From: a virus
IMG/VR virus record: IMGVR_UViG_3300036774_000105
Location: 1 to 52,942 of that record
Length of the DNA stretch: 52,942 nt
Direction: 5' to 3' (one strand)
Shown piece after piece: positions 33,494 through 33,640 of this stretch (positions are counted from its first letter, which is position 1; each line of letters starts with the position of its first letter). A program made the translations under genes and the position numbers. The notes beneath the pieces are model-generated. The model worked only from the letters and a program-made list of their open reading frames with translations, had not been told where the DNA came from and ran no database searches.

Positions 33494-33640
33494 GAGGCTG
33501 GAAATAATCGGTTCGGGTTGCGGCCTTTCGGCCAGCGCTCTTCCGCCTGAGCTACCCTCCCACGAAATGGAAGGGATGGGATTCGAACCCATGACCTCTT
33601 CATTAAAATTGAAGTAACCCGCTCCTGTCGCCACAGCCTC
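33494..33640 (-). ncRNA. yrlA: YrlA-type Y RNA (RNA B) with a circularly permuted tRNA-like module
   Basis: About 147 nt. Closing stem GAGGCTG/CAGCCTC (7 bp), internal loop with TGGCGACAGGAG, middle stem CGGGTT/AACCCG, hairpin CTTCA/TGAAG, then a tRNA body in permuted order: T arm (33576-33592, ATGGG-TTCGAAT-CCCAT), acceptor 3' strand CCCTTCC, loop ATTTCGT, acceptor 5' strand GGGAGGG, U8-A9, and D arm GCTC-AGGCGGAA-GAGC (33537-33552). The anticodon position is replaced by the Y stem. This is the architecture described for bacterial YrlA RNAs that mimic tRNA and bind Ro60. Confidence 0.88.

Follow-up and report, generated by a model that had tools for sequence, protein, structure and literature searches.

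YrlA RNAs carry a tRNA-like domain that is permuted relative to tRNA (excerpts of PMC11472068) and that, according to excerpts of PMC8394870, copies only the D, T and acceptor arms. The locus described here raises the question of how much of a tRNA is copied in the Y RNA of a viral Ro60 gene, and what such a copy might be for. The window, i.e. the whole stretch of DNA that was analysed, comprises the 52,942 bases of one entire IMG/VR virus record.

A viral Ro60 locus with four tandem hairpins

On the minus strand of the window, four Y-like hairpins stand in tandem (from about 33734 down to 33291) and are followed by a Shine-Dalgarno sequence (AGGAGG, 33280-33275) and then by a TROVE/vWA gene, which starts 225 nt downstream of the second hairpin, Y-b, on the same strand. 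The features of this region are as follows.

33748 to 33776, minus strand: weak promoter-like sequence TTGACA-17-TAGATT (10/12) just upstream of Y-a
33655 to 33734, minus strand: Y-a, Y-RNA-like hairpin without a T arm (fold z -2.77; repeat)
33494 to 33640, minus strand: Y-b, from the Y-stem 5' strand through the Y-stem 3' strand (sequence, fold, covariance-model match)
33379 to 33482, minus strand: Y-c, Y-RNA-like hairpin with a lone T arm (fold z -2.93)
33297 to 33364, minus strand: Y-d, short Y-RNA-like hairpin (fold z -1.79)
31920 to 33269, minus strand: Ro60/Rsr-like gene, TROVE and vWA, 449 aa (PF05731, 57.9 bits, cutoff 23)

The vWA match in the Ro60/Rsr-like protein is under its own cutoff, and 0.6 promoter-like sites of the 10/12 kind are expected in shuffles. 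The 5' motif GUGGYG...G(U/C)UACUUC is common to all four hairpins. A hand-written 23-letter Y motif was discarded as a detector, as it matched only Y-c and Y-d and its spacing does not suit Y-a and Y-b. The stem of Y-d runs into a terminator-like U6 (33296-33291) directly before the Ro60 gene, and Y-d could serve as a terminator or attenuator separating the Y RNAs from Ro60. Y-c contains a perfect T arm, GACGG-UUCAAGC-CCGUC (33422-33406, minus strand), adjoining a GGGGC...GCCCC hairpin; no acceptor or D arm was found when Y-c was searched for them, and it is perhaps a reduced tRNA mimic. A 20-base inverted repeat, 80% complementary, links the D-arm region of Y-b (33529-33548) with the sequence after the Y-c T arm (33390-33409), and through it Y-b and Y-c could base-pair with each other.

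Elsewhere in the window, an adenylosuccinate synthetase family protein (29061-30287, minus strand; PF00709, 121.5 bits), which may be a PurZ-like enzyme of 2-aminoadenine DNA synthesis, is separated from the TROVE gene by a 328-aa protein with no Pfam match (30303-31289, minus strand). Rfam also places a Type-P5 twister ribozyme at 46150-46206 (minus strand; 38.2 bits, barely above the cutoff of 37.6).

Y-b and the elements of a tRNA

The first-pass annotation, made from the sequence, had read Y-b as a YrlA-type tRNA mimic in which a permuted T arm-acceptor-D arm body lies between the strands of a Y stem, with the anticodon arm replaced by that stem and a GGCC-GAAA-GGCC hairpin. Our reading of Y-b, from its 5' end, is as follows.

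33614 to 33640, minus strand: Y-stem 5' strand, GAGGCUGUGGCGACAGGAGCGGGUUAC, a Ro60-type stem and repeated motif (repeats; fold with 33494-33519)
33610 to 33612, minus strand: tRNA nt 29-31 (UCA), from the Y-motif strand; pairs 29-41, 30-40 and 31-39 (covariation in relatives)
33603 to 33609, minus strand: anticodon loop AUUUUAA, with U33, anticodon UUU, A37 and A38 (sequence)
33598 to 33602, minus strand: tRNA nt 39-43 (UGAAG), anticodon-stem 3' strand
33593 to 33597, minus strand: variable loop AGGUC, nt 44-48
33576 to 33592, minus strand: T arm AUGGG-UUCGAAU-CCCAU, 5/5 pairs
33569 to 33575, minus strand: acceptor 3' strand CCCUUCC, nt 66-72
33562 to 33568, minus strand: closing loop AUUUCGU, 7 nt, joining both acceptor strands, without a CCA end
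33555 to 33561, minus strand: acceptor 5' strand GGGAGGG, nt 1-7; 7/7 pairs, one G-U at 3-70
33537 to 33554, minus strand: U8-A9 (33554-33553) and D arm GCUC-AGGCGGAA-GAGC, 4/4 pairs (33552-33537)
33534 to 33536, minus strand: nt 26 (G), then nt 27-28 (CU) as possible partners of G43 and A42 (relatives)
33522 to 33533, minus strand: GGCC-GAAA-GGCC, an additional hairpin separating nt 28 from the Y-stem 3' strand (fold)
33494 to 33519, minus strand: Y-stem 3' strand (fold)

The permuted body therefore stands as first described, with its acceptor, T-arm and D-arm pairing, the GG of the D loop, the seven-base loop between the acceptor strands and U8-A9. The Y stem and the GGCC-GAAA-GGCC hairpin are likewise present, but the hairpin is an extra element and no stand-in for an anticodon arm. 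The supposed replacement of that arm proved wrong: Y-b has an anticodon loop, a 3' stem strand and a variable loop, and between its Y motif and T arm the sequence CUUCA-AUUUUAA-UGAAG-AGGUC contains the bases for all five anticodon-stem pairs. From its sequence we are confident that Y-b holds all elements of the tRNA cloverleaf, circularly permuted. U8, G18G19, U33, R37 and a UUCRA T loop are all found in it; normal 5'-3' order and a free CCA-ended acceptor are not, Y-b being permuted and loop-closed. Since its acceptor end is closed, Y-b would not be chargeable as it stands. The Y stem consists of CGGGUU/AACCCG and an irregular lower stem that closes the 5' and 3' ends, and its 5' strand contains a 24-nt repeat common to Y-b, Y-a and Y-c and a 28-nt repeat shared with Y-d.

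A scan of both strands for a permuted body (7/7 acceptor, 5/5 T arm, UA, 4/4 D arm) returned exactly one match in the window, Y-b, and none on either strand of 200 dinucleotide-shuffled windows. The minimum free energy of 33485-33645 is -63.1 kcal/mol (z -2.66), with 2 of 200 shuffles equally low. A covariance model built from 48 relatives, with the window left out, recovers Y-b at 33612-33534 with 80.4 bits (E of roughly 1e-22). The Rfam tRNA model matches 33625-33568 (32.1 bits, cutoff 29), reading it as anticodon arm, variable loop, T arm and acceptor 3' strand. ARAGORN finds no tRNA in the window, and calls tRNA-Lys(ttt) when Y-b is reordered.

The assignment to YrlA held in part. It agrees with the anatomy, the TROVE gene, the three further Y-like hairpins and the relatives described below; against it, the anticodon loop is kept, and the Rfam YrlA model RF02553 gives Y-b 30.6 bits, under its gathering cutoff of 69, for which reason we call Y-b a variant of the YrlA kind and not a member of RF02553. 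In the RF02553 consensus about 7 nt separate CUAC from the T arm, which leaves no room for an anticodon arm, whereas 21 nt separate GUUAC from the T arm in Y-b. Replacement of the anticodon arm thus fits classical YrlA and not Y-b, which is a separate structural class.

Relatives of Y-b in viruses and bacteria

Relatives were gathered from viral contigs and bacterial genomes using DNA search patterns in which nothing but the Y motif and the T loop was specified (plus, in three scans, the base following the Y motif), and represent a sample and no census. A script retained permuted bodies with at least 6/7 acceptor pairs, at least 4/5 T-arm pairs, at least three D-arm pairs and UA. At least 443 viral candidate places yielded 222 passing sequences, 201 without near-duplicates and 176 with fixed geometry (anticodon loop 7, variable loop 5); at least 108 bacterial places yielded 60, 53 and 48, respectively. 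This gives at least 254 deduplicated permuted relatives, 201 viral and 53 bacterial.

Among the matches listed, at least four of five anticodon-stem pairs form in 90 of 176 viral sequences (swapped 3' arms: mean 33.5, maximum 45) and in 30 of 48 bacterial ones (mean 13.7, maximum 23). In these listed arms, U33 is present in 85/90 viral and 26/30 bacterial cases, position 37 is a purine in 89/90 viral cases, and AGGUC is the commonest viral variable loop (37/90). In the first set of at least 73 sequences, fewer pairings resulted when the loop or the variable loop was given another length. The two Y-stem strands of a relative form duplexes of -26.3 kcal/mol on average, vs -15.7 with swapped partners (253 relatives among the matches listed). 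Closing loops of up to 8 nt are found in 64/89 viral and 20/26 bacterial cases of the complete class among the listed matches, and position 73 is near-even over the four bases in its listed viral members. The closed acceptor ends, usually with short loops, lead us to regard these RNAs as mimics and not as tRNAs.

Two tools were set aside. ARAGORN called 78 of 80 reordered RNAs, 76 with the expected anticodon, but it also called a mean of 66/80 after arm shuffling and 30 of 37 arm-less controls, and is nearly blind to the anticodon arm. The covariance model R1, tried for a census, had matches in 143 of 143 bacterial genomes, and no prevalence was therefore taken from it.

Linkage to Ro60 genes

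A TROVE match lies within 3 kb of 200 of the 254 permuted relatives among the matches listed, 199 of them on the same strand, and of 90 of the 115 complete-class members listed, all on the same strand. The informative number is that of matches on the same strand; random positions failed as a proximity control, 145/254 of them also lying within 3 kb because the loci are short. Of 14 Ro60 loci examined, the complete class was detected by a strict script in five (L125, L126, L127, L513, L515). In four of eight named phage loci (L125, L126, L127, L513) that carry annotated tRNAs near Ro60, one such 'tRNA' is a permuted Y RNA of this class:

Xanthomonas phage 10KY502B: annotated tRNA-Thr overlapping a permuted Y RNA
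CcrColossus: annotated tRNA-Gln overlapping a permuted Y RNA
vB_BpoS-Gurke: annotated tRNA-Ser overlapping a permuted Y RNA
Gordonia phage VanLee (L513): annotated tRNA-Arg overlapping a permuted Y RNA

The annotated tRNAs near Ro60 at L129, L510, L511 and L514 were not identified as members of this class by the same script. For Streptomyces phage Quantum the evidence is a model match. A further element of the Caulobacter phage CcrColossus (L126:888 region) has a Y motif followed by an anticodon arm whose loop is CUGCAAA (GCA, Cys), and it also has a T arm; no D arm is evident in that region, and the element is perhaps a D-armless mimic.

The Y stem is placed within the anticodon stem

For the wiring of the anticodon stem we selected sequences only by U33 and the pairs 29-41, 30-40 and 31-39, which gave 118 of 224 permuted bodies among the matches listed. 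In these 118 listed sequences, bases on the D-arm side complete the stem: 27-43 pairs in 115 (shuffle mean 92.0, z 11.6) and 28-42 in 116 (shuffle mean 48.7, z 13.8), whereas bases 27 and 28 taken from the Y-motif side do not covary (z -1.5 and 1.7). The register is sharp, with both D-side pairs in 115/118 of the listed bodies vs 0, 29, 11 and 7 at neighbouring offsets, and bases 26/44 are mostly G/A or A/U. Taken with the Y-motif pairs 29-41 to 31-39, these D-side pairs place the Y stem between nt 28 and 29; as judged by covariation, the Ro60-type stem is inserted within the 5' strand of the anticodon stem. The remaining 106 of the 224 listed relatives show D-side covariation at all five pairs and have a straight stem like that of classical YrlA.

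The U33-selected test is the unbiased evidence here. Alignment A1, comprising 48 of the 77 sequences that meet length limits out of the 115 listed, was rejected for this purpose, its rows having been picked for the tested pairs; RNAalifold did not draw 27-43 and 28-42 on A1. In Y-b both strands carry CU, so that both pairings are possible, and the nearest-neighbour energies of two drawn structures prefer five Y-motif-side pairs (-42.7 vs -35.6 kcal/mol). The D-side assignment of 27 and 28 in Y-b itself rests on its relatives.

Forms in normal tRNA order

If the object is a tRNA whose anticodon stem contains a Y hairpin, it could occur opened at the acceptor end as well. Among the matches listed, 16 of 251 downstream halves are preceded, in normal order, by a 5' tRNA half that fits them, compared with 0 for shuffled and a mean of 0.15 for swapped upstream DNA. 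In 15 of these 16 listed loci, the crAss-like phage cr106_1 (L130) among them, the insert measures 51-71 nt, and many inserts fold as Y hairpins; the extracted insert of L432 contains no hairpin. The sixteenth locus, L131, has a 192-nt insert and was rejected as a tandem artefact. A TROVE match lies within 511 nt on the same strand in 7 of the 15 listed loci, with none in the available DNA of the other 8. As the search required the D-side pairs, it supports the insertion point and the topology but not those pairs.

Bias in the anticodon loop

At least 35 anticodons occur across 115 complete cases. U36-A37 is present in 64 of 89 listed viral arms, as against 499 of the 1518 real tRNAs at these loci (p 5e-13), and in 31 of 46 when one listed sequence per 75%-identity group is kept. 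The anticodon GUU occurs in 26/89 listed viral arms vs 69/1518 real tRNAs of these loci. The bodies of the GUU group are no closer to each other than the rest among the matches listed; enrichment without closer kinship suggests selection on the loop. In the listed bacterial set, U36-A37 enrichment is not significant (13/26 vs 24/87, p 0.055), and neither is G36-G37 on its own in the listed viral arms (15/89, p 0.25). Isotype-matched capture of tRNAs was rejected, since body type and anticodon agree in 10 of 111 listed cases (shuffle mean 6.8). This disagreement also means that no single tRNA is imitated throughout, which weakens a decoy reading for enzymes that read both body and anticodon.

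Possible functions

Our best explanation as a whole, to which we give roughly an even chance, is that Y-b belongs to a phage Ro60 particle as a Y RNA, holds a complete permuted tRNA and has its most likely use as a decoy. Insertion of the Y stem would create a junction joining tRNA and Y stem; the phage Ro60 ring would bind the Y stem, and the particle would present a stable tRNA surface, elbow and anticodon loop, to tRNA-recognising enzymes. Y-b may then act as a Ro60-tethered competitor or decoy for host anticodon-recognising enzymes, for example anti-phage anticodon nucleases of the tRNA-Lys(UUU) kind. The decoy function taken separately is a tentative proposal, somewhat likelier to be wrong than right. 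Hughes et al. proposed competitive inhibition of an anticodon nuclease as a possible role of the tRNA-like domain of YrlA (excerpts of PMC7790460), and tRNA-Lys is the target of PrrC, from which a phage tRNA-Lys rescues phages (excerpts of PMC11555353). Counting against the decoy, YrlA fragments went undetected during tRNA cleavage in Salmonella, according to excerpts of PMC7790460, whose description of that YrlA includes no anticodon arm. The preference of Y-b energies for a stem formed wholly with the Y motif, and the lack of significance for bacterial U36-A37, count against the best explanation too.

The tRNA fold might instead serve just as a robust module for docking PNPase or for shielding the Ro60 ring, the anticodon loop being a structural leftover. 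Excerpts of PMC8394870 and PMC9879122 state that PNPase is bound by YrlA and Rsr, body and anticodon types do not match, and the loop appears dispensable for the class, because 106 of the 224 listed permuted relatives have a straight stem without it. A leftover loop should drift, yet U33 and the purine at 37 are kept in nearly all of the viral arms listed, and U36-A37 and GUU are enriched in that set over real tRNAs; we regard this reading as rather unlikely. The loop could also capture enzymes that modify position 37 (t6A for U36-A37) or the T and D loops, altering or titrating host tRNA modification. U36-A37 marks t6A tRNAs and G36-G37 marks m1G tRNAs, and they occur in 64 and 15 of the 89 listed viral arms, respectively; YrlA is moreover reported as a substrate of TruB and DusA (excerpts of PMC8394870). 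With G36-G37 not enriched by itself and bacterial U36-A37 not significant, we consider such capture improbable.

We find it very improbable that Y-b is the product of a permuted tRNA gene and matures into a functional tRNA-Lys. Although all cloverleaf elements are present, ARAGORN names the reordered RNA accordingly and normal-order forms occur in other phages in our analysis, a 7-nt loop links the acceptor strands and there is no CCA end, listed relatives mostly have similarly short closing loops, position 73 is near-even in the listed viral ones, and the halves would have to be ligated across the Y stem. Nor do we give appreciable credence to an artefact in which pieces of two adjoining tRNA genes are taken for one permuted RNA. 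Tandem tRNA genes are how we read the matches of the covariance model in every bacterial genome searched and the clustered weak matches of the Rfam YrlA model in one genome, but the window has no tRNA by ARAGORN, the two acceptor strands of Y-b pair with each other throughout, and in every one of the 115 complete relatives listed a D arm is absent from the 45 nt upstream of the arm, as is a second T loop from the 72 nt downstream.

Returning to the Ro60-bound decoy, a broader reading of the sequences, which we hold to be doubtful, is that Ro60 particles of phages and bacteria carry widespread, complete permuted tRNAs with diverse, selected anticodon loops and with the Ro60-binding stem forming part of the anticodon stem, and that these act as tethered baits for anticodon-specific enzymes, mainly defence nucleases. 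This reading also takes one and the same object to exist naturally with its opening at one of two places, which gives the permuted order or the normal order of a tRNA.

Relation to known RNAs

Y-b shares with YrlA (RF02553; Salmonella YrlA, PDB 6CU1) the Y stem, the adjoining Ro60/Rsr gene and the permuted T-acceptor-D order; what sets it apart from YrlA is an anticodon loop, a tRNA-like variable loop of five bases and the location of the Y stem within the anticodon stem. In algae and archaea, permuted tRNA genes have the 3' half before the 5' half, and the halves are joined into working tRNAs; Y-b has the same order of halves, but its break is closed by a Ro60-type stem and its acceptor end is capped. 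tmRNA and the tRNA-like structures of viruses are, like Y-b, structural mimics of tRNA. They differ in order, partners and missing arms, and tmRNA has no anticodon loop. Chen et al. 2014 reportedly described phages with TROVE genes and YrlA-like RNAs. Such phages are also noted in print in excerpts of PMC7765460 and PMC7824862, and in the excerpts of the literature searched there is no mention of an anticodon arm for phage-encoded Ro60 with Y RNAs. Permuted YrlA and its presence in phages are therefore already known. The complete anticodon-bearing class of Y RNAs, the 28/29 insertion and the normal-order permutants were not found in the literature searched, as represented by its excerpts, and appear to be new; an earlier description is possible, e.g. 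in Chen 2014 or Wang 2018.

We regard Y-b as a Ro60-linked complete tRNA mimic, a YrlA variant, and perhaps a decoy for anticodon-recognising enzymes. Some phage 'tRNA genes' adjoining Ro60 are explained as annotation errors, and the normal-order loci would provide natural circular permutants of one RNA fold. Anticodon-recognising enzymes are the obvious candidate partners, and the anticodon of each phage would predict which tRNA is concerned. With a large class that keeps a U33 loop and is biased at positions 36-37, the role of the tRNA-like domain of Y RNAs becomes testable.
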